This document shows positions 1,813 to 58,117 of a stretch of DNA of 64,000 bases, piece by piece. Position 1 is the first letter of the stretch. Every line of letters begins with the position of its first letter. The notes below the pieces were generated by a model. That model did no database searches. It was not told the DNA's origin and saw only the letters and a list, made by a program, of their open reading frames with translations. The stretch is from positions 1 through 64,000 of IMG/VR virus record IMGVR_UViG_3300030419_006472; one strand, given 5' to 3'. The stretch comes from a virus. A program made the translations under genes and the position numbers.

Positions 1813-1995
1813 ATGCCGAGGAAAAAAGTAAAAAAAGAAAGACACAAAATAACTCCTGATCTTATTTTAGATTTATACAAACACACTAAAACATTACCTG
1901 ATCCAGAAAAAGAAGAAACAGTTGAAAAAGTAAAAGGTCTCGTAAAATACATAGGCAGTGAAATTAGTATAGATTTACATGACATCAAAAATTAA
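1813..1995 (+). CDS. Small basic protein of unknown function
   Basis: This is a 60-residue, lysine-rich protein with no family I recognise. It opens with a basic run (MPRKKVKKERHK) followed by predicted helix. It overlaps the start of the phosphoribosyltransferase gene by 17 bases, so the two are probably co-transcribed. A TAAATA box ends 6 bases before its ATG. I prefer it to the overlapping minus-strand frame because of this box and the coupling to the next gene. It may bind nucleic acid, but that is only suggested by charge. Confidence 0.5.
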   Translation: MPRKKVKKERHKITPDLILDLYKHTKTLPDPEKEETVEKVKGLVKYIGSEISIDLHDIKN

Positions 1996-2458
1996 ATTAT
2001 CTTGGGAGAGTATTGAACAAGACGTATCTTTATTAACAAAAAAAGCAAAAGATTTTCATCCTACATGTATTCTCGGTGTTGCAAACGGTGGGATGATTCC
2101 TGCGACTCTCTTAGCGAAACTATTAAAAGTTGATAAATTACTTTCATGTAACTTAAAATCATATCAAGACGATGCACCACGAAGTGGTCCTCATAATATA
2201 AATGATGTAGTAAAACAAATCTCCTTTCCAACGCAAGATGAATTAATGAGAGAGAGAGTTTTAGTAGTCGACGATCTTGTTGATACAGGATTAACTCTAC
2301 AAAAAATATATAACAACTTTGTTTTATATAATGATCAATATAATATAAATTGGGATTTTGCTACATTATATTATAAACCTAAAACATCCTTCATGCCTGA
2401 TTATACAGTAAGACAATTTGACAATGATGCGTGGATTGTTTTTCCGTGGGAGAAATAA
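1979..2458 (+). CDS. Purine phosphoribosyltransferase (Gpt-like)
   Basis: This 159-residue protein belongs to the type I phosphoribosyltransferase family, which joins a free purine base to PRPP. The PRPP-binding loop is clear at about residues 94-106 (VLVVDDLVDTGLT), and the N-terminal stretch GVANGGMIPATLLAK matches xanthine/hypoxanthine-guanine transferases. Length matches the Gpt group. In a phage it would salvage bases from the degraded host. Because this phage also carries deazaguanine genes, a role with guanine-like bases is possible but unproven. It ends one base before the convergent fibre gene. Confidence 0.75.
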   Translation: MTSKIKLSWESIEQDVSLLTKKAKDFHPTCILGVANGGMIPATLLAKLLKVDKLLSCNLKSYQDDAPRSGPHNINDVVKQISFPTQDELMRERVLVVDDLVDTGLTLQKIYNNFVLYNDQYNINWDFATLYYKPKTSFMPDYTVRQFDNDAWIVFPWEK

Positions 2459-7848: not shown

Positions 7849-8667
7849 ATGACGATTAAGGTGTCTCATGAATCTCCTATTGCTCTACTACCAGAGTCAA
7901 TATTATACAACGATTATCAATATTGTTTAGTACATTTAATGGAAGAAGAACCAGAATATAGAGACTGGTTTCTCGGAAAATATAGAGCCATCAGACCAGA
8001 TGGTGAAATTCTATTAGATAATTCTATTTTTGAACTTAAGGAAGCGTTTGATTCGGAAAAATATGCACAATGGTGCGAGAAAATAAAACCAAATTATTAC
8101 ATTGTACCAGATGTATTAGAATCAGCATACGGTACAATAGCAAACTTTAAAGCATTTACACAAGATTATAGTGGTCTTCCGGGAGCAACTATCGGTGCAG
8201 TTCAAGGTAAAACATGGACGGATGTCGTTGATTGCTATAAGTTTATGTCAGAGAATGCAGATTATATTGCTATGAGTTTTGACTTTAGTATGTATAATGT
8301 AACGGGTTTTAATCGATTAATTGATAATGAAAAACTTATGCGACAAACTACAGGAAGACAAAACCTTGTAAAAAGACTTATTGATGAAGGATGGTGGGAT
8401 TGGGATAAACCACATCACTTGTTAGGTGCTTCATTGGCTAGAGAGTTTAAGTGGTACGTGAATAATAACATTTATAATATTAGAAGTCTTGATACATCTA
8501 ATCCAGTTGTAGCAGGATTATTAGGTTATCCTTATCAAGGAGATTTTGGTCTAAGTCATAAACCTAGTCAATTACTAGCACATATGATTCGAGCTCAACC
8601 TGATGATGACGCAAAAGAACTTATTAGATACAACACAAAGATGTTTAAAAGTATTATTGGACGATGA
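7849..8667 (+). CDS. dpdA: DpdA-like guanine transglycosylase (7-deazaguanine insertion into DNA)
   Basis: The 272-residue protein resembles tRNA-guanine transglycosylases reduced to their barrel. Three acidic sites align with the TGT catalytic set: D57 (LLDNSIFE), D88 (VPDVL) and D215 (SLDTSNP). It also has GAVQG (116-120) and LLGAS (191-195), which fit the base-binding loops. The TGT zinc motif for tRNA binding is missing, as in phage DpdA proteins. DpdA swaps guanine in DNA for a free 7-deazaguanine. It heads an operon with a formyltransferase and QueF, and FolE, QueD and QueE are elsewhere in the window, which strongly supports this call. The DpdA subfamily is not assigned. Confidence 0.82.
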   Translation: MTIKVSHESPIALLPESILYNDYQYCLVHLMEEEPEYRDWFLGKYRAIRPDGEILLDNSIFELKEAFDSEKYAQWCEKIKPNYYIVPDVLESAYGTIANFKAFTQDYSGLPGATIGAVQGKTWTDVVDCYKFMSENADYIAMSFDFSMYNVTGFNRLIDNEKLMRQTTGRQNLVKRLIDEGWWDWDKPHHLLGASLAREFKWYVNNNIYNIRSLDTSNPVVAGLLGYPYQGDFGLSHKPSQLLAHMIRAQPDDDAKELIRYNTKMFKSIIGR

Positions 8668-9236
8668 AGTGGATTGCATTTTTTAGTCAAACTGGTTCTG
8701 AAATTGTTAATATATCTAAGACTATCAATAGATGGCCAGATCTTGTTGTAACTAATAAACAAAATGACGAAAGTACTAATATTGAGCTTGTTCGACGAGT
8801 AAACCAACAACTAATTAATATAGTTAGATTACCAAAATGGCCAAAGGAAATGGATTATCTTAGAGCAGCAGATGCTTTAAATTATTCTATTTTAAATGAC
8901 GATTGGACAAACGATGTATTTGTAACTCTTCATGGGTATCTTAGAATATTACCTCCTGACTTTACTAGATCATCTAATATCTTTAATGGTCATCCAGGAG
9001 CTATTCATATCTATCCTGAACTTAAAGGTTTTAATCCGCAGAAAAAGGCTTGGGAAGCAAACCATATTCGAGTCGGGTGTGTTATTCATAAAGTAACCCC
9101 CGAACTCGATGATGGTCCTGTTATAGAAAAGTGTCTTATTAATAATGATTTTGATTCATACGAAGAACTAGAGAAAGCTCTTCACGTTGAATCTACAAAA
9201 CTTTGGATAAATTTTTTAAATGAAAGATTACGATGA
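8664..9236 (+). CDS. PurN-like formyltransferase, candidate DpdN (deazaguanine formylation)
   Basis: This 190-residue protein has the formyltransferase core of the GART/PurN family. The catalytic set is kept: N108 and H110 in NGHPG and D149 in VTPELDDGPVIE, as in the Asn-His-Asp triad of PurN. The start overlaps the dpdA stop codon (ATGA), so the two are translationally coupled. 7-(formylamino)methyl-7-deazaguanine is known in phage DNA and a formyltransferase, DpdN, has been predicted for it. I infer that this enzyme formylates preQ1, free or in DNA. A purine-synthesis role is less likely because no other pur gene is nearby. Confidence 0.72.
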   Translation: MKWIAFFSQTGSEIVNISKTINRWPDLVVTNKQNDESTNIELVRRVNQQLINIVRLPKWPKEMDYLRAADALNYSILNDDWTNDVFVTLHGYLRILPPDFTRSSNIFNGHPGAIHIYPELKGFNPQKKAWEANHIRVGCVIHKVTPELDDGPVIEKCLINNDFDSYEELEKALHVESTKLWINFLNERLR

Positions 9237-9570
9237 AATTAAAAAAACGGTAGAAGCAGATTACCCTCAAACATGCGCAATGTTGAAGAATTTGCTCGAA
9301 GAAGAATATAAATTGTTTATTCAGAAACAATACGATTACGGACCAGGTAACATTTCAGTTGGTCAAGACGTATCGAAACCAGAAGGACAAATAGTCGCAA
9401 AAACCGGACTAGTGTTTCGTATTCATGATAAAGTACAGAGATTGATTAATCTTATCATTGTGAAACGTACTGACGAAGCTGCCAATGAACCAATTATCGA
9501 TGCTTGGAAAGATTCAAGTTTATATTGCAAAATTGCTCAGATAGTCGATAATGGTACTTGGGGCAAATAA
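9220..9570 (+). CDS. Nmad1/DUF1599-like protein
   Basis: The 116-residue protein carries motifs that I associate with the nucleotide-modification-associated domain 1 (DUF1599) family: KQYDYGPGNI (36-45), a helix with FRIHDKVQRLINL (66-78), and NEPIIDAWKDSSLYCKIA (89-106). The acidic helices recall all-alpha NTP pyrophosphatases. The family is often found beside phage base-modification genes, and here it lies between the formyltransferase (17-base overlap) and a kinase. A role in handling the modified or normal nucleotide pool is an inference. Confidence 0.65.
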   Translation: MKDYDEIKKTVEADYPQTCAMLKNLLEEEYKLFIQKQYDYGPGNISVGQDVSKPEGQIVAKTGLVFRIHDKVQRLINLIIVKRTDEAANEPIIDAWKDSSLYCKIAQIVDNGTWGK

Positions 9571-10133
9571 TGTTAATATCTTTTACAGGAGCTCAATCTT
9601 CAGGTAAGACGACGTTACTCAATCATTGGACTGATTGCAGGAATCACTTTAAAGTAGTTCCGGAAGTTACGCGTAAGTTAAAAAGACAGGGGTTTGAGAT
9701 AAACGACGATAGTAGTAACTACGTCGATACTCAAATCGCAATATTAGCTGATCATCTAAATAATATATTTTTATATGCTAATACAGAAACAACTGGAATA
9801 GTTGTAGATACTATTTTAGATAGATGTATTATTGATGGATTTATTTATACACGATACTTTCGACGAGAAGGTAAAGTAGATGAATTTGTAGATAAGATAT
9901 TTACTTATATGCTGAAAAAGTATATTGAGAAATATGATTATATCTTTTATACTAGCCCGTATGATGTAGCTCTAATTAATGACGGAGAAAGATCTATGAG
10001 CGAGAGCTTTCGCAATAAGATTATAAAATTATATGAAGAATTAATCTTAGATAAGTATCCGAATGTTTATGTACTTGAAGGAAGTGTTGAGAGTCGCTAT
10101 AATAAGATGACAGAGATAATATATAATGAGTAA
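9570..10133 (+). CDS. P-loop nucleoside/nucleotide kinase (AAA_28/NadR-like)
   Basis: The 187-residue protein has a Walker A loop right at the N-terminus (FTGAQSSGKTT) and a kinase-type lid region with DRCIIDGFIY and YIFYTSPYD. This matches small AAA_28/NadR-type kinases. The ATG at 9570 overlaps the previous stop codon (TAATG); an upstream TTG at 9558 is possible but less likely. It sits within the deazaguanine operon, so it may phosphorylate a nucleoside used or released by the modification pathway, but the substrate cannot be read from the sequence. Confidence 0.7.
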   Translation: MLISFTGAQSSGKTTLLNHWTDCRNHFKVVPEVTRKLKRQGFEINDDSSNYVDTQIAILADHLNNIFLYANTETTGIVVDTILDRCIIDGFIYTRYFRREGKVDEFVDKIFTYMLKKYIEKYDYIFYTSPYDVALINDGERSMSESFRNKIIKLYEELILDKYPNVYVLEGSVESRYNKMTEIIYNE

Positions 10134-11094
10134 ACTCGATAATAAAAACATAAGTAAGCACCTAGGTAAAACTAGCAAATATAAATCTCAATACGATCCG
10201 AGTCTTCTCGTAAGAGAGCCTAGATCCAGTAACCGCAAACATCTTGATATTAAAGAGAAAGATCTACCTTTTGTAGGGTACGATGTATGGAACGGTTATG
10301 AAGTATCAGGACTATTAAATAACGGTGTTCCTATTAGTGCAGTTGCTAAAGTAGTATATCCATGTGATAGTAAATATATCGTCGAATCTAAATCTATGAA
10401 ACTATATTGGAATAGTTTTAATATGACTAAGCTTGGAGATACAATAGAAGAAACAGTGAGCGCTATGGAGAAGATGGCTACTGAAGATCTTAGTACGTTA
10501 CTACAAACGGAAGTTAAAGTTAAATTATTCTCTTGCGATACGGATTTAAAAGGAGTTTCTAATCCATTCTTAGAATCATATGATGCTACTCCAAATTCTT
10601 TAACGATTGTATCAACTAAAAAATATGTAAGGTTGGAGCACTACTTGACAACTGGATGGCGGTCAAAGGAGAAGATTGAGATTACTAAGTATAATGAAGA
10701 TCCTTCTATATTTGATACTAAATATACCTCTGTATCTCAGCCGAATAATCTAAATGTAATGTCTTCATTACTTAAAAGTAATTGCCGAGTTACGTCGCAA
10801 CCTGATTGGGGAGATGTATTTATTCATATAGAAGGACAATGGTTGCCTGGTGTAAGAGAATTACTTGAATATATTATTTCGTTTAGAGACGAAAACCACT
10901 TCCATGAAGAAATATGTGAAACTATATATAAACGCTTGTATGATAGGTTCTCCCCGCGGGAATTAATGATTGCGTGTCTATACGCACGAAGAGGTGGATG
11001 GGATATTAATCCAGTTAGAGCTAATAAAATAGAATTAATCGATAATATTATGTGGGATGAAACCATTCCATGGATTAAGACTATTAGACAATAA
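10126..11094 (+). CDS. queF: QueF, NADPH-dependent 7-cyano-7-deazaguanine (preQ0) reductase
   Basis: This 322-residue protein is the long, two-domain form of QueF, as in E. coli. It reduces the nitrile preQ0 to the amine preQ1. The QueF motif VESKSMKLYWNSFN lies at about 86-99. The catalytic Cys is C220 in SSLLKSNC, with D227 in QPDWG seven residues later, as in E. coli Cys190/Asp197, and H260-E261 in FRDENHFHEE. The C-terminal YARRGGWDINP also matches. It overlaps the kinase gene and ends the operon at a terminator. Its presence implies that preQ1, not only preQ0, is the base made. Confidence 0.9.
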   Translation: MSKLDNKNISKHLGKTSKYKSQYDPSLLVREPRSSNRKHLDIKEKDLPFVGYDVWNGYEVSGLLNNGVPISAVAKVVYPCDSKYIVESKSMKLYWNSFNMTKLGDTIEETVSAMEKMATEDLSTLLQTEVKVKLFSCDTDLKGVSNPFLESYDATPNSLTIVSTKKYVRLEHYLTTGWRSKEKIEITKYNEDPSIFDTKYTSVSQPNNLNVMSSLLKSNCRVTSQPDWGDVFIHIEGQWLPGVRELLEYIISFRDENHFHEEICETIYKRLYDRFSPRELMIACLYARRGGWDINPVRANKIELIDNIMWDETIPWIKTIRQ

Positions 11095-18647: not shown

Positions 18648-19320
18648 AATCAAATGTATTTACCGGGATGTAATCTTGATCAATAACAAATATATTTTTA
18701 ACATCAGTTGTATCCCCTTTAAACAACCACCCTTTCATTGTAAAGCTAGTATCTGCTATAATTCTAGCAGGTTGTGCACCTGATACTTCAACAGGATAAT
18801 CTAAACTTATATTACCATCCCATAATACTTCAGTTCTTATTTCTAAATCATTAGCTAAATTCTGGGAAGACGGTACCTTCCAGCTTATAACAATATATGG
18901 GTTATTATAAGGTACAAAATTACTTAAAATCTGATCCATATCAGTTTGAAACTTTGTCATAATAGACATTGATATACCGATATTAACTGGTATGGGTGTT
19001 TTCATCCAGTCAGAGTCAAAACCACCAGCACTTACTGAAGGAGCTTTAGTATAATAAAAGCCCGGTATCTTATTAAAGACCCTTTCAGGATCTCTAGTAA
19101 TAGATGTATAATGAACAGCAATAGTCGGAAGTTTTAACGATTGAGATTTATTAACTATATCTTGAAGAGCCCGTTCCTTCGGACCATAATAGAACCCAGT
19201 CTGAATTCTATCAACAATAGTTTTACTTCTATTATATCTATTAATGACAATACTATTAAAAGCAGTAATAAACTGCCTTATCATGTCTTTTAGTTCAAAA
19301 CCATAATACCGGTTTTTCAT
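18640..19320 (-). CDS. 15: Tail sheath stabiliser/completion protein, gp15-like
   Basis: The 226-residue protein looks like T4 gp15, which caps the tail tube and sheath before head joining. Its N-terminal region (FITAFNSIVINRYN, then TGFYYGPKERALQDIV) and the central PIPVNIGISMSIMTKFQTDM with ILSNFVPYNNPYIVI fit the family pattern. Length is somewhat less than T4 gp15. It leads the transcription unit running into gp20. The start is supported by an AATAAATA box 6 bases upstream. Confidence 0.68.
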   Translation of the reverse strand: MKNRYYGFELKDMIRQFITAFNSIVINRYNRSKTIVDRIQTGFYYGPKERALQDIVNKSQSLKLPTIAVHYTSITRDPERVFNKIPGFYYTKAPSVSAGGFDSDWMKTPIPVNIGISMSIMTKFQTDMDQILSNFVPYNNPYIVISWKVPSSQNLANDLEIRTEVLWDGNISLDYPVEVSGAQPARIIADTSFTMKGWLFKGDTTDVKNIFVIDQDYIPVNTFDYE

Positions 19321-19325
19321 TATAA

Positions 19326-19333
19326 ATATTTAT
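19326..19333 (-). promoter_or_regulatory. Late-promoter-like AATAAATA box
   Basis: AATAAATA on the minus strand ends 6 bases before the gp15-like ATG and overlaps the stop codon of the helicase gene. It would start the late neck and head unit. Confidence 0.4.
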
Positions 19334-20970
19334 TAAATAAAACGGTCTATAAAATAATCTGGCAATAAACTTCTATATTCAGGTAGTAATTTTCTTATAC
19401 CACCAGCGTCAATGACATACGTAGTACTATAGTCATTTTCGTCTCTCGTACATCTTCCACACTGTTGAATAAACGTAGTAAACATTTTATTTGTATACCA
19501 TTTATAATCATTTTTAGACATTTCTTTTACTCGTATGTCTCCTAAATCAGGCCATGGGCATTTAATAATAATACAAAATCGAGCCGCATCACCTTTCAAA
19601 TCAACCCCAAAACTTAACGACGGGCTAGCTAATACAGTAGGTTTCGAACTTTCAGAATGCTCGGTCAATATATCTATATTATCCTTATCACCTCTTATAC
19701 GATATAACACCCTATCATTTTTTAATTCGTTTTTTAATCTCAATGTCAAAGCATTTGACTGAGTGTGAATTAAACCTTTTACATCTTTATGCTCCTTTAA
19801 AATTTGATCTACACATTCAACAACTTTAGGAAAATATCTATCAATATTCTTTTTTGAAAGTTGAATAGTACCAAATACAATTGGTGACAGTTTCGGATCA
19901 AACGATGAAGGTAAATCTATATATTTAAAATCTTGCTCTTCTATACCTAAGTTTCTCATAACACGTCTATAATCGACGAATGTAGCAGACATAAGAAGTA
20001 CCTTATCAGCATATCTAAATAAATGCTGCGCTAATACATCAACCTTTTTAGGTATTAATTGTATATATTTTTTATTATAAATAGAAGTCTTATTAACAAT
20101 ATATTCAGATTGCTGCCAAGTATCAATAATAAGAGATAAGTCGCGCTTTAAATCTGCAATAAATTTAAACTCTTTCTTTACTGCATCACTTATAGTGTCA
20201 GAATGCTTCTCAAGCATACGGAGCAATTCAACATACCTACCTTCTAACTGACGATGTAAGTTAATTAAATTATTATAAAACCGTTTTCTGTTAGATGAAT
20301 ATAATAAACTAAAACTATACCTGTTTAATTTACCCAATTCAATACTACAACTAAACCGACTAACAATTATATTTTCTAATTCCGACGCCTCGTCACATAC
20401 AATAAGCTGTCTATATTTTAAATGATCAGGTTTGTGAAAGAAGCTAGAATAATTTTCTACACTTATTTTTGCAGTTATAGATTTATTTTTAGCTTCATAA
20501 TAATCACACCTATTACAATCCCAACATTCTCTTTTTAGTTTAGAACTAAAAGTACATGGAGCAGCATCGGCAGTACTTCGATCATCTAAATTACAAACAT
20601 ATGAACCTTTACCTTTAAGAGGTTTTATGTCTTTAAAATCTTTAGTGTATTGATCTTGTAATGCTTTTGTTGTTGTTAATATCGATGTGCCGTAATTTTT
20701 ATCAATAAAATCGTCTGCATATTCATAAACTAATTTACCATTATCCCATGATGTCTCAAACGCTCTATAATCGGAAACTAATTTTGATAACCTTGACGGT
20801 AATTTTTGTAATCCGTTTGCTATTGTTTTGGCAATAAAACTTTTTCCGCAGCCAGTAGGTCCCTGCATAACAACAAACTTGTGCTCTTTAAACGCATCAA
20901 GTATATTAGGGATAGCATACTGCTGACTCGAGGATGGAGTGTATCCTTTCGGGAAGTTTTTAATACCCAT
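19333..20970 (-). CDS. XPD/DinG-like superfamily 2 DNA helicase with Fe-S-type Cys cluster
   Basis: The 545-residue protein has Walker A at 36-44 (QGPTGCGKS), the DEAH-like box as VCDEASELE (191-199), a motif with LLMSATFVD, and C-terminal motifs LASPSLSFGVDLKG and QQCGRCTRDEND. Between motifs I and II lie Cys 126, 139, 149, 152 and 155, the place where XPD and DinG helicases hold a 4Fe-4S cluster. Such enzymes unwind DNA 5' to 3'. It has its own early-type promoter, so a role in replication or repair is likely. Confidence 0.85.
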   Translation of the reverse strand: MGIKNFPKGYTPSSSQQYAIPNILDAFKEHKFVVMQGPTGCGKSFIAKTIANGLQKLPSRLSKLVSDYRAFETSWDNGKLVYEYADDFIDKNYGTSILTTTKALQDQYTKDFKDIKPLKGKGSYVCNLDDRSTADAAPCTFSSKLKRECWDCNRCDYYEAKNKSITAKISVENYSSFFHKPDHLKYRQLIVCDEASELENIIVSRFSCSIELGKLNRYSFSLLYSSNRKRFYNNLINLHRQLEGRYVELLRMLEKHSDTISDAVKKEFKFIADLKRDLSLIIDTWQQSEYIVNKTSIYNKKYIQLIPKKVDVLAQHLFRYADKVLLMSATFVDYRRVMRNLGIEEQDFKYIDLPSSFDPKLSPIVFGTIQLSKKNIDRYFPKVVECVDQILKEHKDVKGLIHTQSNALTLRLKNELKNDRVLYRIRGDKDNIDILTEHSESSKPTVLASPSLSFGVDLKGDAARFCIIIKCPWPDLGDIRVKEMSKNDYKWYTNKMFTTFIQQCGRCTRDENDYSTTYVIDAGGIRKLLPEYRSLLPDYFIDRFI

Positions 20971-49885: not shown

Positions 49886-50644
49886 TTATTTATTCATACG
49901 ACTCGCCTTATCTTTCTCGATTTGCTCTTCTAATGCTTTTCGTAAATGAGAATGCTCTGTAGGATCTACATCTGCCCACGCACCACTTAATGCTTTCATG
50001 TCAGATAGCATATCTTCATCGATAAGATCTCCCCCAGGATGTATATCTCCCTCAGCATCAATATAAAGTTTAAGTATTTGTATACGTTCTCTCTGACTGC
50101 CAAATACTTCTATAATACCAGGTTTATCATCTTTAATAAAAAACACACTTGAATCATTATTCATGTATTCTCGGTGCATAGCTTTAAAGATATTATCTAC
50201 TTCCTCTATAACTTTAAGGTTAGTGTCCCGTAGATCATCTTCTGTTAATTCAACAGGAGCGACCTTTGTTATAGGTGTGAAAAATATAATATCTAAATCA
50301 CGAAAACTCTCTCTAACGAGAGGAATACATTCCTGTACAAAATCATCATCTATATCTAACTCGGTCTGTTCGGTTGCCCACATGCTATATACAAGATTAT
50401 CTAATGGACATCTATCAAAAATTACATTATCAGAGCTACGATATTTCTTTTGCTCTTTAATCATAAAATCTAATATTTTCTTTTGTGTTTTTTTATTAGT
50501 TTTTGATGAATGCTCGAGATCATTTTCTTTAATAATGTCTCTATACGTCTTTTTAGGGGTAGTGTAACTCGGCCATTGCTCTAAGAAGTCTTTAATTAAA
50601 GTAGTTTTACCCTGACACGCAGTTCCACTAATTGCAATCCTCAT
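49886..50644 (-). CDS. P-loop nucleotide kinase-like protein (AAA_28)
   Basis: The 252-residue protein has Walker A in IAISGTACQGKTTLIKDFLE (3-22), a kinase-type DR motif VIFDRCPLDNLVYSMW and IIFFTPITK. The C-terminal 55 residues (DPTEHSHLRKALEEQIEKDK) are helical and charged. It lies 20 bases downstream of queE and may be co-transcribed; a TATAAATA box is 9 bases upstream. It resembles the kinase in the dpdA operon in layout. The substrate is unknown. Confidence 0.7.
   Translation of the reverse strand: MRIAISGTACQGKTTLIKDFLEQWPSYTTPKKTYRDIIKENDLEHSSKTNKKTQKKILDFMIKEQKKYRSSDNVIFDRCPLDNLVYSMWATEQTELDIDDDFVQECIPLVRESFRDLDIIFFTPITKVAPVELTEDDLRDTNLKVIEEVDNIFKAMHREYMNNDSSVFFIKDDKPGIIEVFGSQRERIQILKLYIDAEGDIHPGGDLIDEDMLSDMKALSGAWADVDPTEHSHLRKALEEQIEKDKASRMNK
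49887..49894 (-). promoter_or_regulatory. Late-promoter-like AATAAATA box
   Basis: AATAAATA ends 5 bases before the ATG at 49881 and overlaps the kinase stop codon region. Confidence 0.35.
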
Positions 50645-50664: not shown

Positions 50665-51426
50665 TTACACTTTTAAGGCCATATCCCATACTAGTAAATG
50701 TAGCCTAGGGCTAAAATTAAAGTGATGCTTTTTAGCTAATTCTGCAACCATAGGAGCAACTTCAATATGCTCTTTTCTACTACCAGCGCAAGGCATTAAC
50801 CAAACACGACCTGTAGGTATATCAAATTTATCAACATACTTTTTCATCACTTCATCTAAATCTGATTCTTTACTTATGACGAATTTAAAACCAGATCCTT
50901 GATTTGCATGCCATTCTAGTACATTAGGTTTATATCTCCTATTTTCTGGGTCACCATTATTACTAAGCTTAGGAGAAGTAGTAAATGTAGCACCAATTCT
51001 AACCCATTCTTTATCTGGCATAATTGTAGCGTTGGTTTCAAAATCAATTCTAGGTACCCAACCCCATTCTACCTCCATATATGCTAAAAACCTAAGCAAC
51101 GCAGGCTGCTGTACTAAGGGCTCACCACCTGTAATCTTCCATATAGCTCCGTTATATAAATGCTTTTCAAAACCTTCCTGTTCTAAGTGTTGTAATAAAT
51201 CAGCATTTGTAATTCTATTCTTAACGCTCCAAGATATATAACTATCACAACCATTGGGAGAATCTTCTGAAGCGAAACCTTGACATGTAAGGTTACACAT
51301 AGATAATCGCATAAATACCGAAGGGTATCCTACAAACTCTCCTTCTCCTTCCACAGTATAAAATACTTTATCGTCAGATAATAGTATTGTCTTATCACTA
51401 AGATCGTCTTTATAAAGATTTGTCAT
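50665..51426 (-). CDS. queE: QueE, 7-carboxy-7-deazaguanine synthase
   Basis: The 253-residue radical SAM enzyme turns 6-carboxytetrahydropterin into 7-carboxy-7-deazaguanine. The N-terminal VFYTVEGEGEFVGYPSVFMR (21-40) and ITGGEPLVQQPALL (98-111) are QueE marks. The cluster Cys are C44, C48 and C60, spaced CX3CX11C, unlike the common CX3CX2C. Length and the C-terminal LMPCAGSR motif fit. It overlaps the small gene after queD by 17 bases, so queD and queE form a unit. Confidence 0.85.
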   Translation of the reverse strand: MTNLYKDDLSDKTILLSDDKVFYTVEGEGEFVGYPSVFMRLSMCNLTCQGFASEDSPNGCDSYISWSVKNRITNADLLQHLEQEGFEKHLYNGAIWKITGGEPLVQQPALLRFLAYMEVEWGWVPRIDFETNATIMPDKEWVRIGATFTTSPKLSNNGDPENRRYKPNVLEWHANQGSGFKFVISKESDLDEVMKKYVDKFDIPTGRVWLMPCAGSRKEHIEVAPMVAELAKKHHFNFSPRLHLLVWDMALKV

Positions 51427-51561: not shown

Positions 51562-52041
51562 TTAATCTACTGTAGCTGAAAGTGCAGACCATACTGCAGT
51601 TGTATCTTCTACTTCATAAATAGCAGAATTATTTTCATGTTCGAAAACTTCTACTCTTTTACACCAACATCTATCATCAGTTAGTTCTTTTACATACTCA
51701 TCAGCAGTTCGCCAGCAATATTCAGCAAACTTTTCAATACCAACACCATCCATAATTCTTAAATCTACAATATCATCGTCGTTTAACATCTTAAAGGCTC
51801 TTATTGCAGGGTCGTCGGCGGCAATTACAGTGGTGTGATCGAATTGATGTTGGAGTTTCTTTTTAAGATCTTTTAATCCACCGAAGTCAACAACCCAATT
51901 ATTCTCATCTAACTCTTTAGCTCCAAACCAAAATTTACCAACCAACCGATAACCGTGTACAAACCGGCAATGCGATGTAGCTTTAGGCTGTCTGAACGCA
52001 CAACTACCTAATTCAATAATTTTAGTACTAGAAAAACTCAT
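51562..52041 (-). CDS. queD: QueD, 6-carboxytetrahydropterin synthase
   Basis: The 159-residue protein is of the QueD/PTPS family, which turns dihydroneopterin triphosphate into 6-carboxytetrahydropterin. Marks are CAFRQPKATSHCRFVHGYRL (14-33) with C25, DFGGLKDLKKKLQHQFDH (52-69) and the late FEHENNS (133-139). Zinc is usually held by three His with an HGH pair; here HGY is seen and the first His appears replaced by F16, with H24 nearby. This looks like a phage-type variant. It has a near-perfect early promoter. Confidence 0.82.
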   Translation of the reverse strand: MSFSSTKIIELGSCAFRQPKATSHCRFVHGYRLVGKFWFGAKELDENNWVVDFGGLKDLKKKLQHQFDHTTVIAADDPAIRAFKMLNDDDIVDLRIMDGVGIEKFAEYCWRTADEYVKELTDDRCWCKRVEVFEHENNSAIYEVEDTTAVWSALSATVD

Positions 52042-52531: not shown

Positions 52532-52639
52532 TTACCAGAAAGGATATGTATTATCATCATCATCGTCTTTTTTAAGCTTTTGTAATATCCATTGCTTAAT
52601 TTGAAGGTATCTTAATTTTATCTTATAAAAAACTGTCAT
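52532..52639 (-). CDS. Very small basic-acidic protein
   Basis: A 35-codon frame starts at the ATG at 52639, which overlaps the stop of the SGNH gene (ATGA), and has AAAGGA about 7 bases upstream. The product is a basic helix followed by five Asp and NTYPFW. Function is unknown. The coupling to the SGNH gene and the ribosome site support translation. Confidence 0.45.
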   Translation of the reverse strand: MTVFYKIKLRYLQIKQWILQKLKKDDDDDNTYPFW

Positions 52640-53412
52640 AAATGTTCCTTTATTTTATCTGCTATTAGCTTGGCCCCAAGTTGGTTTACATGTCGATGAT
52701 CCTCAGTCAATGTTGGATTATGGGATTTAAACCAACTGGTGTGAAAATTATTCTCATTAATATAAACAATATTATTTATATCACAATATTCGGATAATGT
52801 TTCTTTATAAAAATCTTTTGAAAATTCATGAATAAAAGGATGTATAGTTTCTTCGTAACGTAAAAATATTATTTTAATTTCAGGAAATTTATCACGAATA
52901 AGGTCAACATTATATTTTACAGCTCTTATCGCTTTTTCATAAAATAAATCACGACGAGACATAATATCATATATGTCTTGCATAGTAATTTTAGATTTTT
53001 TAGGCGATAGATCGTTTCCAAACTTTAACATAGTCCATAAAAACTCTGATCCATATATGTCAGTCTTTTGGTCATGGCCAATCCGATCTGGGTGACGCAA
53101 TCTCCCTTTTTTAATTTTTACATTATATTTTTTAGATAAATATTCTTTTATCTCTATAGGCGCTGAATAAAAATCATCTATTGAATAATTTTTACATAAT
53201 GGTTGTCTTGCTGGAGACGGTACTTGCCAGATAAAATGAGTTAGTTTAAGATGGTATTTATTAGTTAAAAACTCTTTAACCCGTGTTACGTCGATGCCAG
53301 AACCACGTTCAGCAATACTGTGTACCTTCCCTGGTAAGTAACGCCAATACGCCTGCATCGCGCCAACCCCAAAGGAAATAGAAAATGAACAACCGTTATT
53401 TAAAATAATCAT
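52636..53412 (-). CDS. SGNH-like hydrolase, array member 1
   Basis: The 258-residue protein has the array pattern: N-terminal NNGCSF with a candidate nucleophile Ser, then SIAERGSGID, LTHFIWQVPSPARQP, IKIIFLRYEETIHPF and the end EDHRHVNQLGAKLIADK. The Ser at the start and the DxxH at the end are laid out as in SGNH/GDSL hydrolases, but the block III GxND is replaced by the QVPSPxRQP motif. No signal peptide is seen. It is the last gene of the array in the direction of transcription. Confidence 0.65.
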   Translation of the reverse strand: MIILNNGCSFSISFGVGAMQAYWRYLPGKVHSIAERGSGIDVTRVKEFLTNKYHLKLTHFIWQVPSPARQPLCKNYSIDDFYSAPIEIKEYLSKKYNVKIKKGRLRHPDRIGHDQKTDIYGSEFLWTMLKFGNDLSPKKSKITMQDIYDIMSRRDLFYEKAIRAVKYNVDLIRDKFPEIKIIFLRYEETIHPFIHEFSKDFYKETLSEYCDINNIVYINENNFHTSWFKSHNPTLTEDHRHVNQLGAKLIADKIKEHL

Positions 53413-54341
53413 AAATACTCTTTTATTTTATTTGCTATTAGTTCTGCACCGGCGCGATTAGGGTGTCTTTTATCATCACATAATTTTTTATCTTTAAACC
53501 ATTTTGTATTAAAATTTTCTTCATAGATATATGTAACATTATTGTCTTTACAATACTCAGATAAAGTATTTTTAAACCAATCCTTTGCGTATTCATGAAC
53601 TAAGGGTATTTTAGTTTCTTCATACCGTAAAAATATAATTTTTACATCTGGCCATTTATCGCGAAGTATATTAACATTTTCATTTACACCGTTAAGTGCC
53701 TTTTTTAAATATCTTTCACGGGTCTCGAGCCCGAAAATTTTATGTTCATGTCGTAGTTGATGCCATAAAAAATTATCTTGTAAGTATTTTGTCTTCTGAA
53801 CTTCTTCCCACGAACCCTCCATATATTTTTCCCCACACCCAAACCTCTTAAACCGACGACCTAGGAGCCTAAGGACGTCTGTTAAGCGTTCGCTGTAACC
53901 TGTTGAGTGGTTAAGAGCTCGTTCTGTGTACTTAGGAGCATTCTCCGAAATTTCCCAAAGCTCATCTATTTGTAAGGTAGCTTTATAAAACTCTTCATCA
54001 TCTTTTAATTCTTCAAATATCGGCTGTCTAGTAGGATGAGGGATTTGATAAATATAATGAGTTAATTGTTTGTTTTTTTTACGCCAACGAGCATCTACCT
54101 CATCTAAAAACCTCTTAGTCCGTGTTACGTCAATACCGGATCCGTGTTTGGCAATATTGTGTATTTCTCCTGGTAAATAATCACAATATGATGTTATGTA
54201 CCAATCAGTGTTGCGCCGGACTTTCGGTTTTTTAGGTGAAGAATGTTTATCTTTCCGTAGCAATTGTTGTCCTTTACCGTTTTTAGCATATTTAATTTTG
54301 CTTTTAGCCGAAAATGAACAACCGTTATTAAGAATAACCAT
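53409..54341 (-). CDS. SGNH-like hydrolase, array member 2
   Basis: The longest member, 310 residues. It has NNGCSFSAKSK, NIAKHGSGIDVT, THYIYQIPHPTRQP and the end DDKRHPNRAGAELIANK, keeping Ser, Asp and His. It has a 50-residue insert near residues 125-180. It is closest to member 1 in the NNGCSF start and GSGIDVTR block, so this pair probably arose by a recent duplication. An AATAAATA box is 5 bases before the ATG. Confidence 0.65.
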   Translation of the reverse strand: MVILNNGCSFSAKSKIKYAKNGKGQQLLRKDKHSSPKKPKVRRNTDWYITSYCDYLPGEIHNIAKHGSGIDVTRTKRFLDEVDARWRKKNKQLTHYIYQIPHPTRQPIFEELKDDEEFYKATLQIDELWEISENAPKYTERALNHSTGYSERLTDVLRLLGRRFKRFGCGEKYMEGSWEEVQKTKYLQDNFLWHQLRHEHKIFGLETRERYLKKALNGVNENVNILRDKWPDVKIIFLRYEETKIPLVHEYAKDWFKNTLSEYCKDNNVTYIYEENFNTKWFKDKKLCDDKRHPNRAGAELIANKIKEYL

Positions 54342-54346
54342 AGAAA

Positions 54347-54354
54347 TATTTATT
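54347..54354 (-). promoter_or_regulatory. Late-promoter-like AATAAATA box
   Basis: AATAAATA on the minus strand ends 5 bases before the ATG at 54341, inside the array. Confidence 0.35.
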
Positions 54355-55147
54355 ATAAGTTTTTCTTTATTCTATTTGCGATTAATTTCGAACCTTCAAT
54401 ATTAGGGTGTACTTTGTCAATGGTTAAATTATGACGGTAAAACCATAAAGTGTTAAATTGTTTTTCATATATATACGTTATATCGTTATCCTCGCAATAA
54501 TTTGGTAGTAATTGTTTATAAAAATCTTTACAAAATTCAGCAATTAAAGGATTTCGACCTTCCTCATAACGTAAAAATATAATTTTTACATCAGGATGTT
54601 CTCGTCTGACGATATTAACATTATTATTAACTTTACTTAAAGCTTTATTTAAAAATAAATGCCTATTATTGAATTCTTCTACATTGCCTCCCTTAAGTAA
54701 CCGCCATAATGTTCTATTTTTTTTACCTACAGACCATAGATTATCCTTGTGCTTTCCACAAAAGGGCCACGCATAAGGATCGTTTAATTGTTTTGGTTGT
54801 CTGGCGGGGCTCGGTACTTGATAGATAAAATGTGTTAAACGGATATTTTTATTTCGTGTAATAAACTTCGATATATCTTGACTTTGAATACCGCTAGCTG
54901 GTCTTCCTATATTATATGTTGTCTCAGGGAGGTAATTAGTATAAGAGACATACGGGTTCAGTATAAACTCATTTAATTTAATAGTAATTTCATCTGCAAG
55001 CGCAGACGCTGGATGACCATTAGCATAATCTGCAGGTATAAAACTAGGACCTGGTACGGTACTATCATCTATTCCGTCAACAGTGATATCGCTAGTATGA
55101 TTCCAACCAGCTGTAAACGAACAACCTGCACATAATATATTATACAC
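54353..55147 (-). CDS. SGNH-like hydrolase, array member 3
   Basis: The 264-residue protein has ILCAGCSFTAGW, YNIGRPASGIQ, LTHFIYQVPSPARQP and the end DKVHPNIEGSKLIANR, keeping Ser, Asp and His. It starts with GTG at 55147, overlapping the TAG stop of member 4. A stretch of about 40 residues after the N-terminal motif (SDITVDGIDDSTV) is unique to this copy. Confidence 0.65.
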   Translation of the reverse strand: MYNILCAGCSFTAGWNHTSDITVDGIDDSTVPGPSFIPADYANGHPASALADEITIKLNEFILNPYVSYTNYLPETTYNIGRPASGIQSQDISKFITRNKNIRLTHFIYQVPSPARQPKQLNDPYAWPFCGKHKDNLWSVGKKNRTLWRLLKGGNVEEFNNRHLFLNKALSKVNNNVNIVRREHPDVKIIFLRYEEGRNPLIAEFCKDFYKQLLPNYCEDNDITYIYEKQFNTLWFYRHNLTIDKVHPNIEGSKLIANRIKKNL

Positions 55148-55944
55148 TATAAATACTCTTTTATTTTATCTGCTATCAGCTTGGCTCCTGCTTTATTGGG
55201 ATGGATTCCAAGTTTGTGTTTTTTAAACCATCTTGTATTAAAATTCTCTTCATAGATATATGAAAAATTATTTTTTTCACAATAGTTAGCTAGTGTGTTT
55301 TTATAAAAATTTTTAGTAAATTCATATTGTAAGGGCTTTCTCGTATCCTCGTACCGTAAAAATATTATTTTAGCATTAGGGTGATTTTCTCGAATTAAAT
55401 TAACATTAATGTTAACTACATCTATAGCTTTTTTATGATATTCCTCTATTTTATCAAAAACCTGTAAATTAGGTTTTCTTAATTCATTATATATTGTTTT
55501 TTCAAAATCATTATCAGGTGTACGCCGCGTTCCCTCATTAATACTTACTTCTTCCAATTTACCATCATAATGTACGTAAGTATGACCGTTTATAAATGCG
55601 TATTTATCACGACCTCCAATTCTAAGTCTAAAATGATCTTCATTGTAATTATTCAAATCTACGGGTTGGCGAGTAGGACTAGGTACTTGATAAATAACGT
55701 GTGTCAATTTTACGTCTCTATTTTGATCAAAAAACAGTCTAAAATATCTGGGAGAAATTCCAAGTCCCCATTTACCAATATTATATGTTTTACCAGGTAA
55801 ATAATTGGCATATGGATACCAGCGAGGATTTAATGGGTCATCGTCCACCAGCTCAACGGAAGTCTTACGATCAACGTATGTTACTTCGCGTTTATAATTA
55901 CCGTGAGTAAAAGAACAGCCAGCACATAATATATTATACATCAT
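55147..55944 (-). CDS. SGNH-like hydrolase, array member 4 (Asp of DxxH replaced)
   Basis: The 265-residue protein has ILCAGCSFTHG, YNIGKWGLGISP, LTHVIYQVPSPTRQP and LGIHPNKAGAKLIADK. The Asp expected three residues before the His is Gly here, so the usual DxxH is not kept. The start may be the first or second ATG (MMYN). The stop of member 4 shares a base with the GTG of member 3. Closest in layout to member 6. Confidence 0.6.
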   Translation of the reverse strand: MMYNILCAGCSFTHGNYKREVTYVDRKTSVELVDDDPLNPRWYPYANYLPGKTYNIGKWGLGISPRYFRLFFDQNRDVKLTHVIYQVPSPTRQPVDLNNYNEDHFRLRIGGRDKYAFINGHTYVHYDGKLEEVSINEGTRRTPDNDFEKTIYNELRKPNLQVFDKIEEYHKKAIDVVNINVNLIRENHPNAKIIFLRYEDTRKPLQYEFTKNFYKNTLANYCEKNNFSYIYEENFNTRWFKKHKLGIHPNKAGAKLIADKIKEYL

Positions 55945-56660
55945 ATATATATTTTTATTTTATCTGCAATTATCTTAACTCCCTCACCGTCAGGATGTGT
56001 TTGGTCAGTCGTCATTCCATTTTTGTTAAACCATTTTGAATTAAAATCTTCTTCATATATATACGTAATATCGTTTTTCATGCAATATTCACTTAAATTA
56101 TTTTTATACCAATCTTTACAAAATGCACTGAGTAATGGAATAGTAGTTATTTCATAACGGAGAAATATAATTTTAATCCCTGGGTAGTTTTCACGTATAA
56201 ACTTAACGTTAATATCTACGTTGTTCATAGCTTTATCTAAATATTTTTCATGATTAGTAAAAATCTCCGTAATATGTTTGCTTCTTAAAATTTTATTTTC
56301 TATTAATAAATTCCATATATTTTTTTTATTTAAAATTGAATTTTTATAACCGTGGATTATTTTTCTTTCGTCCTCTACAGCTTCTCTAATATGAAAACAC
56401 TCCGGAGCGTTTTCGTTTATGTCTAAAGGCTGACGCGCAGGAGATGGTACTTGATAAATAAAATGTGTTAAATCTATATCTTTATTTTCTTGAACGAATT
56501 TCTCAATTAAATGCTTTGTAATACCTGCGCCAGCTTCTCCGATGTTATATACAAACTCCGGTAAATGATTAGCATATGAATAACCTCCGAAAGTATTACC
56601 TGTAGGGAGCCTTTCGCATTTTGTAAACGAACAACCGGCGCATAATATATTATACATCAT
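55941..56660 (-). CDS. SGNH-like hydrolase, array member 5
   Basis: The 239-residue protein has ILCAGCSFTKCE, YNIGEAGAGITK, LTHFIYQVPSPARQP and DQTHPDGEGVKIIADK, keeping Ser, Asp and His. It is the shortest member. A GAGGAAAA sequence lies upstream of its ATG. It overlaps members 4 and 6 by a few bases. Confidence 0.65.
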   Translation of the reverse strand: MMYNILCAGCSFTKCERLPTGNTFGGYSYANHLPEFVYNIGEAGAGITKHLIEKFVQENKDIDLTHFIYQVPSPARQPLDINENAPECFHIREAVEDERKIIHGYKNSILNKKNIWNLLIENKILRSKHITEIFTNHEKYLDKAMNNVDINVKFIRENYPGIKIIFLRYEITTIPLLSAFCKDWYKNNLSEYCMKNDITYIYEEDFNSKWFNKNGMTTDQTHPDGEGVKIIADKIKIYI

Positions 56661-57427
56661 AAATTTTCCTCTATCTTATCTGCTATTAGCCTAGCTCCTG
56701 CTCTATTAGGGTGTGAGCCATAGTTATTTCGCTTAAACCACTTTGTACCGAAATTTTTTTCATTAATATACGGTATATCGTTTTTCTCACAATAATTAGT
56801 TAGTACTTTTTTATAAAAATTCCTGCTAAATTCATATATTAACGGTTTTATTGTATGTTCAAATTTTAAAAATATTATCTTAGCATTAGGATAAGTTTCT
56901 CGAATTAAATCAACACTTTTGTTAACCATGTATAAGGCTTTTTTATGATATTCCTCTATTTTATCAAAACCTTGCAAACTCGAGTTAAAATGATTTTTAG
57001 AAACCGCTAACTGCATCCATAATGATTTTATTCCAAAGCTTGCACCTAAGGCTCTAAAATGATTTTCATTATAATCACTTAAATCTACGGGTTGACGAGT
57101 CGGACAAGGTACTTGATAAATAAAATGTGTTAAATTTATATCTGGTTTTACTTTTATAAACTTTTTGAGATACTTAGGAGAAATACCAAAACCACGTTTT
57201 CCAATGTTAAATACATGACCTGGTAAATAACTTGCATACGGAAATTCTTCTGTACCTTTATGACAGTGTGTAAACGAGCAACCACTACATAATATGCAAT
57301 AATTTTTATCAGAAGGATTTATGGTCTCTAAACACAATGGAGATTTTTCGCAAAATGTTGTATGTCCTATATATTCGTGATTTCTATATATTTTCTTTGT
57401 GCTCAGATCCGATCTCTCAACAACCAT
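56657..57427 (-). CDS. SGNH-like hydrolase, array member 6 (Asp of DxxH replaced)
   Basis: The 256-residue protein has a 45-residue N-terminal extension before LCSGCSFTHCH, then FNIGKRGFGISP, LTHFIYQVPCPTRQP and YGSHPNRAGARLIADK. The Asp before the final His is Gly in NYGSHPN. It is the first gene of the array in the direction of transcription, with an ATTAAATA box 5 bases before the ATG. The extension holds Cys in TTFCEKSPLCLE and in YCILCSGC. Confidence 0.6.
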   Translation of the reverse strand: MVVERSDLSTKKIYRNHEYIGHTTFCEKSPLCLETINPSDKNYCILCSGCSFTHCHKGTEEFPYASYLPGHVFNIGKRGFGISPKYLKKFIKVKPDINLTHFIYQVPCPTRQPVDLSDYNENHFRALGASFGIKSLWMQLAVSKNHFNSSLQGFDKIEEYHKKALYMVNKSVDLIRETYPNAKIIFLKFEHTIKPLIYEFSRNFYKKVLTNYCEKNDIPYINEKNFGTKWFKRNNYGSHPNRAGARLIADKIEENL

Positions 57428-57443: not shown

Positions 57444-57471
57444 TTGATTTATAATTCAAATATGTTATAAT
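57444..57471 (+). promoter_or_regulatory. Early-type promoter for folE
   Basis: TTGATT, 16-base spacer, perfect TATAAT, then 7 bases to the ATG at 57479. The TATAAT overlaps an upstream ATG at 57470, so that upstream start is unlikely to be used. Confidence 0.7.
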
Positions 57472-57478
57472 GATTCAT

Positions 57479-58117
57479 ATGAATGAGGATTTACTTCGAT
57501 ACGCTAACGGTAATAAACCGCGAACACAAGAAGAGAGAGAAGCGATAATTGATAAAGCTGCTGCAGCGTATGAAAAATATATGGATGCATTAGGCTTTGA
57601 TTGGAGAAATGATCCTAATAGCGCAGACACTCCAAGACGGGTAGCTAAGGCATTTGTTAATGATCTAGCAGAAGGATGTTATAGTAATTCACCGAAAATT
57701 ACAGCATTTGATAATGTTGATAAGTACGATGGTTTAGTATTTCAAGGTAATATTAAAGTTAATTCTTTTTGCTCACATCATCACTTACCGTTTATTGGTC
57801 AAGCTCATGTATCTTATATACCTGGAAAAGACGGTAAGGTAATCGGTTTAAGTAAAATTAATCGTATTGTTGAATGGTTTTCAAGACGACCACAAGTACA
57901 AGAAAACTTAACTATGCAAATTCATAATTATATGAATGAAGTATGTAAGGGAAATAAAGGTATTGCAGTTCTAGTATCAGCTAATCATACATGCGCCGGT
58001 CTTAGAGGTGTTAAGCATGATAGTATTATGAAAACTGCTAGAATGTCAGGAGCGTTTTTAGATAAAACAGATTTAACTCGTCAAGAGTTTTATGACTTTG
58101 TCAGAGATTTAAAATAA
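57479..58117 (+). CDS. folE: FolE, GTP cyclohydrolase I
   Basis: The product is 212 residues from the ATG at 57479; the upstream ATG at 57470 lies within the -10 box. GTP cyclohydrolase I makes dihydroneopterin triphosphate from GTP, the first step toward deazaguanine and folate. Marks are the zinc site SFCSHHHLPFIGQAHVSYIP, GLSKINRIVEWFSRRPQVQE and TCAGLRGVKHDSIMKTARMS. Length is normal. With QueD and QueE it gives the path to 7-carboxy-7-deazaguanine. Its promoter matches those of dpdA and queD. Confidence 0.93.
   Translation: MNEDLLRYANGNKPRTQEEREAIIDKAAAAYEKYMDALGFDWRNDPNSADTPRRVAKAFVNDLAEGCYSNSPKITAFDNVDKYDGLVFQGNIKVNSFCSHHHLPFIGQAHVSYIPGKDGKVIGLSKINRIVEWFSRRPQVQENLTMQIHNYMNEVCKGNKGIAVLVSANHTCAGLRGVKHDSIMKTARMSGAFLDKTDLTRQEFYDFVRDLK

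Follow-up and report, generated by a model that had tools for sequence, protein, structure and literature searches.

The DNA analyzed here is a stretch of 64,000 nucleotides (in the following, the window), positions 1 to 64,000 of the IMG/VR virus record IMGVR_UViG_3300030419_006472, and is part of a virus contig of 114,716 bases. We consider it probable that this phage makes a modified guanine of the formyl-preQ1 type and installs it in its own DNA. The reading is based on an operon at 7849-11094, which carries genes for a DpdA-type transglycosylase (the 7849 protein), a formyltransferase, a kinase-like protein and QueF, and on further 7-deazaguanine genes located elsewhere on the same contig (Table 1). 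The contig represents a T4-like lineage with a capsid protein nearest to that of T4-like cyanophages (~31%).

Gene set and transglycosylase

As judged from family matches, the set of FolE, QueD, QueE, QueC, QueF and DpdA is complete on one contig. The initial annotation had described the pathway as near-complete. Its enzyme identities and its order of the pathway were upheld, and open reading frame (ORF) positions together with Pfam and PHROG matches placed the named genes where it had put them. The qualification can be dropped, as QueC was found beyond the window; with QueC on the same contig the route from GTP to preQ1 is predicted to be complete. The operon itself consists of five plus strand genes, each overlapping the next, of which those at 9220-9570 and 9570-10133 had not been named before. 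For the kinase gene the ATG at 9570 was preferred to the TTG at 9558 given in the ORF list. The same gene order was found again in dozens of independent contigs and is therefore not due to chance. A near-identical relative of 200,819 bases (99%; record G001, equal to locus L004) carries the operon and QueC as well.

The 7849 protein had no significant match in Pfam or NCBIfam. Sequence and profile searches of the PDB were also empty, and its identity among known structures was therefore settled by the fold search alone. Using an AlphaFold2 model (predicted local distance difference test score of 92.8), Foldseek against the PDB found tRNA-guanine transglycosylase (TGT) as the best match (E 2.4e-9) and the DNA preQ0 insertase DpdA (7ui4) at 1.2e-5. 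The protein shared 45% identity with a protein annotated as "DNA guanine transglycosylase, DpdA" in Flavobacterium phage immuto, and 40% with one annotated as hypothetical in Campylobacter phage CP220. The residues Asp57, Asp88, Gln119, Gly120 and Asp215 were invariant across 26 relatives, and the three aspartates also within a wider set of 14. We take these residues to be the catalytic and base-binding positions of TGT, an assignment made by motif and not by superposed coordinates. In a profile alignment the protein lined up with the LDSGAF and DSSSW motifs of DpdA1. A conserved cysteine cluster corresponding to the zinc subdomain of tRNA TGT was absent from the invariant and near-invariant columns of this protein of 272 amino acids (aa).

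Comparison with hhalign gave an E-value of 2.6e-66 against a profile of the CP220, CC_R7, immuto and Bacillus proteins, and a marginal match (E 0.0024, probability 12%) to the DpdA1 proteins of CAjan and 9g. By homology and modelled fold the 7849 protein is thus assigned to the TGT/DpdA superfamily, and there to the CP220/immuto subfamily and not to the CAjan/9g family. The initial annotation had taken it for DpdA-like and had suggested a comparison of DpdA subfamilies; the immuto homology, the TGT fold and the subfamily profile match agree with a DpdA-type protein and not with an unrelated barrel, and the comparison points to the CP220/immuto type. We assume that this subfamily is the one called DpdA3, a name which Cui and colleagues reportedly introduced in 2023 and tied to complete replacement of G. 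Relatives of the protein are numerous (at least 589 in one scan), and the cultured ones found in this analysis belong to phages of Campylobacter, Flavobacterium, Bacillus and Weizmannia.

QueF retained the motifs ESKSMKLY (NADPH motif, residue 87) and CRVTSQPDW (active-site cysteine motif, residue 220) and matched TIGR03138 with 3.3e-74 and 249.9 bits at a cut-off of 293. What sequence and predicted fold show directly is the operon, the identity of the genes, the completeness of the set and the residues of catalytic type in DpdA and QueF.

Formyltransferase and proposed modification

The formyltransferase was 40% identical to the immuto gene at the same position. It keeps Asn-x-His at 108 and DDGPV at 149, which make up a putative catalytic set (Asn/His/Asp) recognized by motif. 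The occurrence of this gene and of QueF was compared over 30 DpdA lineages (70% clustering), using profiles made in this analysis, as for all counts given here; scans of IMG/VR cover at most 80 loci. Both genes were present in 16 loci, QueF without the formyltransferase in four and neither gene in nine (P 4e-4, with ancestry ignored). The single locus with a formyltransferase and no QueF (L064) lies on a contig that breaks off. That the formyltransferase is nearly confined to loci with QueF is explained by QueF making the acceptor amine. This linkage makes 7-(formylamino)methyl-7-deazaguanine, and not preQ1, the most likely product. The initial annotation had proposed a preQ1-type base; the synthesis of preQ1 by QueF stands, and as the end product the formylated base is likelier. 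Loci with dpdA, kinase and queF and lacking the formyltransferase, such as L073, L089 and L152, should accordingly carry dPreQ1. Cui and colleagues are also said to have named a dPreQ1 formyltransferase DpdN in 2023. Presumably the protein found here is of this kind, the match being made by motif and gene linkage.

In the proposed pathway FolE, QueD, QueE and QueC would convert GTP to preQ0, and QueF would convert preQ0 to preQ1. DpdA would then put the 7-deazaguanine in the place of guanine, and capping of the exposed aminomethyl group by the formyltransferase would yield 2'-deoxy-7-(formylamino)methyl-7-deazaguanosine. Replacement would probably concern all or nearly all G positions, and the modified G would block restriction enzymes and other proteins reading the N7 of guanine. 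Protection by 7-deazaguanines has been demonstrated in CAjan and E. coli (PMC6884629).

With respect to the extent, a partial or whole replacement had been suggested initially. Of these, whole replacement is favored by the membership in the CP220/immuto subfamily, as in CP220 and CPt10 100% of dG is replaced by dADG (PMC8306585). Phages of the 9g, CAjan, Dp-1 and nt-1 type show partial replacement, with about 0.1-32% for DpdA phages other than CP220 (PMC6884629). In 2019 the Campylobacter phages were still listed as being without DpdA (PMC6884629).

Several points weigh against this proposal. All chemistry of the modification in this phage, including the substrate and order of formylation, the extent of replacement and the benefit against restriction, is inferred. 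The substrate of the formyltransferase could be another amine. CP220 has dADG but neither QueF nor the formyltransferase, so the value of 100% is carried over by subfamily and not by product. QueE and QueD scored below the NCBIfam equivalog cut-offs and are thus diverged, yet both fall well within phage families. Finally, the Fisher values for co-occurrence take no account of shared ancestry.

Two readings would do without a modified DNA base or without its formylation. PurN-like genes are present in cyanophages, and the formyltransferase might be a purine-synthesis gene of this kind, an auxiliary metabolic PurN that lies in the operon by chance. We regard this as very unlikely, as the protein scores 42 bits, where the PurN equivalog cut-off is 150, and its gene overlaps dpdA and is almost always accompanied by QueF. 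Even less credible is that the genes raise the level of preQ1 for queuosine in tRNA of the host or the phage. FolE, QueD, QueE, QueC and QueF do serve queuosine synthesis in bacteria, and queuosine-type genes without DpdA are known from other phages (PMC6884629). However, the transglycosylase belongs to a phage DpdA subfamily tied to fully modified DNA and is, with 272 aa, shorter than the matched TGT chains (about 340-390 aa). Furthermore, tRNA genes were absent from the window and a formyltransferase has no role in queuosine.

Linkage of a kinase to DpdA

The operon kinase matched PHROG 2107 ("thymidylate kinase", 3.5e-23), and its profile matched TMK, dNK, dGK and NadR. A P-loop kinase of this one family was located within 3.5 kb of dpdA in 24 of the 30 lineages. 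In the Bacillus phage BSP7 and the Weizmannia phage Youna2 the gene overlapping dpdA codes for a kinase of PHROG 761 (also "thymidylate kinase"), a family that was checked for Youna2 and for the corresponding BSTP12 gene. In the Aeromonas phage Ahp1 a deoxynucleotide kinase of the T4 gp1 type (L048:5882-6451) adjoins a more distant DpdA-like gene; it is a diverged second copy, and a full-length copy is present elsewhere in the genome. Taken together, 27 of 30 lineages had one of these three kinase types beside their DpdA of the CP220/immuto type. Among 13 control loci (9g/CAjan type and the DpdA2 candidate of VH7D) none had a kinase beside dpdA. These controls were hand-picked from a ranked list of annotated phage records, as IMG/VR yielded too few DpdA1 loci for this use. 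Within the lineages, L058 and L091 had no kinase near dpdA, and the contig of L064 ends early.

A search seeded with the kinase gave the reverse picture, with DpdA of the CP220/immuto type within 2.5 kb in 38 of 41 loci. The pair was also seen on three contigs binned as bacterial; on L153, one of the three, the ORFs read as the entire set. In CP220, CC_R7 and L028 the pair is kept without QueF or the formyltransferase, and the kinase is therefore a partner of DpdA and not of the preQ1 or formyl step. Phosphorylation of the base by the kinase, as in phages with hypermodified thymidine, was set aside, as CP220 has the same kinase and plain dADG. Two kinases of the AAA_28 family were also observed in CP220, CC_R7 and a 209-kb relative (record G008).

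Two further readings concern the use of the kinase; both share the gene list and the end product with the pathway proposed above. In one of them, DpdA of the CP220/immuto type would swap the base on a free deoxynucleotide (e.g. dGMP), the kinase would phosphorylate the product and the polymerase would use the modified triphosphate. G would be replaced ahead of polymerization, and replacement would therefore be complete, as for 2-aminoadenine in S-2L. We consider this route possible but doubtful. The kinase counts are in line with it as a matter of linkage only, as are the persistence of the DpdA-kinase pair without QueF and the formyltransferase and the DpdA genes close to the kinases found in the seeded search. 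Complete replacement in CP220, compared with the lower values of other DpdA phages, would fit as well, and a modified-dGTP proposal exists for Campylobacter phages (PMC6884629). Compared with DpdA1, the CP220/immuto type of DpdA is also somewhat more acidic. On the other hand, known DpdA enzymes work on DNA, and a linked enzyme for the removal of dGTP was not found: MazG of family PF03819, considered as a shared partner, was absent in eight genomes. An HD-domain neighbor in CP220 was rejected as a dGTPase, since a polynucleotide-kinase-like AAA_33 domain is part of the same protein. The NMAD1-like protein of the operon, which was rejected as a general dGTP pyrophosphatase, tracks the formyltransferase and not DpdA in general, being encoded in 8 of 23 loci with a formyltransferase and in none of 21 without it (80% clustering). 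L058 and L091, both without a nearby kinase, argue in the same direction. Insertion is reportedly post-replicative for DpdA3 too, according to Cui and colleagues in 2023, which would likewise count against this route.

Alternatively, DpdA would act on DNA and free one guanine per swap, which a phosphoribosyltransferase and the kinase would return to GTP and thereby to FolE. This salvage is a tentative explanation too. Phosphoribosyltransferase genes occur near the pathway in the window phage, immuto, L058, L153 and L154, and an inorganic pyrophosphatase gene is present in L060. In contrast, CP220, CC_R7, BSTP12, Youna2 and Ahp1 all have a linked kinase and no phosphoribosyltransferase. The kinase profile is closer to TMK, dNK and NadR than to guanylate kinase, and the Ahp1 kinase is of the deoxynucleotide kinase family; the latter, the missing phosphoribosyltransferases and the complete replacement in CP220 speak for a swap on the free nucleotide over salvage.

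If true, the exchange on free nucleotides would add a second, pre-replicative way of arriving at 7-deazaguanine DNA, and the complete replacement of G would be accounted for. Whether DpdA acts on DNA or on the nucleotide pool decides how 100% replacement arises and whether the enzymes are usable for making fully substituted DNA in vitro. The linkage of kinase and DpdA, as possible machinery of a modified-dGTP route, is what these data add and may be new.

Related systems and neighboring genes

The initial annotation had supposed the gene set to be novel for a T4-like marine phage, which did not hold: the Flavobacterium phages vB_FspM_immuto (3-5A, 2-6A and 13-6C) in GenBank already have queD, queE, folE, dpdA, formyltransferase, kinase and queF in one block. 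Besides DpdA and the formyltransferase, QueF is shared with 43% identity. In the window phage the genes are found in three places, and the operon includes an NMAD1-like gene, where immuto has a MazG-like gene (PF01503) before dpdA; the latter was seen in immuto only. A further difference is a DNA polymerase A near the immuto block. The gene set is thus known, and the neighborhood is partly new. The present data place a complete pathway of predicted formyl-preQ1 type in a widespread uncultured lineage of T4-like phages.

The CP220/CPt10 group shares the DpdA subfamily, with a kinase of the same family encoded immediately after it, but has neither QueF nor a formyltransferase beside dpdA and its product is dADG (PMC8306585). 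Phages with DpdA1 (9g, CAjan and Dp-1) share FolE, QueD, QueE, QueC and a TGT-like DpdA, and Dp-1 has dPreQ1 (PMC6884629). They differ in the marginal profile match, the partial replacement, the lack of a kinase and the location of dpdA by clamp and polymerase or ParB-like genes. Where DpdA1-type phages infect Gram-positive hosts or Cellulophaga, dpdA adjoins or lies near a ParB-like gene (noted at L141, L142, L143 and L144), and in phages of the Queuovirinae type it adjoins clamp and polymerase. The DpdA2 phages (Vibrio nt-1 and VH7D) are T4-like too and have FolE, QueC and a QueF 41% identical to that of the window. Their DpdA is larger (458 aa for the candidate in VH7D) and has no kinase nearby; for nt-1 the modification is very low (PMC6884629). 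Cyanophage S-2L with PurZ and DatZ (PMC8342488) is a possible analogy only, with complete replacement at the nucleotide level by unrelated enzymes and with an unrelated base.

Table 1. Features of the predicted modification pathway and associated genes; positions refer to the window unless stated otherwise.
Feature	Position	Strand	Basis
Phosphoribosyltransferase-like ORF, possible guanine salvage	1979..2458	+	association only
dpdA (CP220/immuto subfamily), putative guanine / 7-deazaguanine transglycosylase, 272 aa	7849..8667	+	homology, fold, profile
Formyltransferase, PurN-like fold	8664..9236	+	PF00551 8.5e-11; 4-base overlap with dpdA
NMAD1/DUF1599-like protein, 116 aa, all-helical	9220..9570	+	PF07659 via relatives
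P-loop nucleoside/nucleotide-kinase-like protein (AAA_28; NadR/TMK/dNK-like), 187 aa	9570..10133	+	PF13521 5.5e-15
QueF, two-domain preQ0 reductase (preQ0 to preQ1)	10126..11094	+	PF14819 5.5e-33; PF14489 3.7e-17
Second AAA_28 kinase-like protein, directly downstream of queE	49886..50644	-	PF13521 3e-14; association only
QueE, 7-carboxy-7-deazaguanine synthase	50665..51426	-	PHROG QueE 2.3e-45
QueD, 6-carboxytetrahydropterin synthase	51562..52041	-	PF01242 1e-17
FolE, GTP cyclohydrolase I	57470..58117	+	PF01227 8.9e-47
QueC	71446-72156 of the contig, outside the window		PF06508 1.1e-59; TIGR00364 169.8 (cut-off 150.3)

The phosphoribosyltransferase-like ORF was named from a PF00156 match at 19017-19421 of the 99%-identical genome G001. 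For the NMAD1-like family two members matched PF07659 (best E 0.0023); the model of the protein had low confidence (58.7), and a profile search of the PDB for it was empty. Insertions into the operon were seen in relatives, namely the inorganic pyrophosphatase gene at L060:8230-8742 and an ornithine cyclodeaminase-like gene at L064:9395-10321. Finally, six paralogous genes of 239-310 aa are arranged head-to-tail on the minus strand of the window (52636-57427). They had no Pfam match, carry N-terminal (N)NGCSFS / CAGCSFT motifs and appeared SGNH-hydrolase-like by eye.

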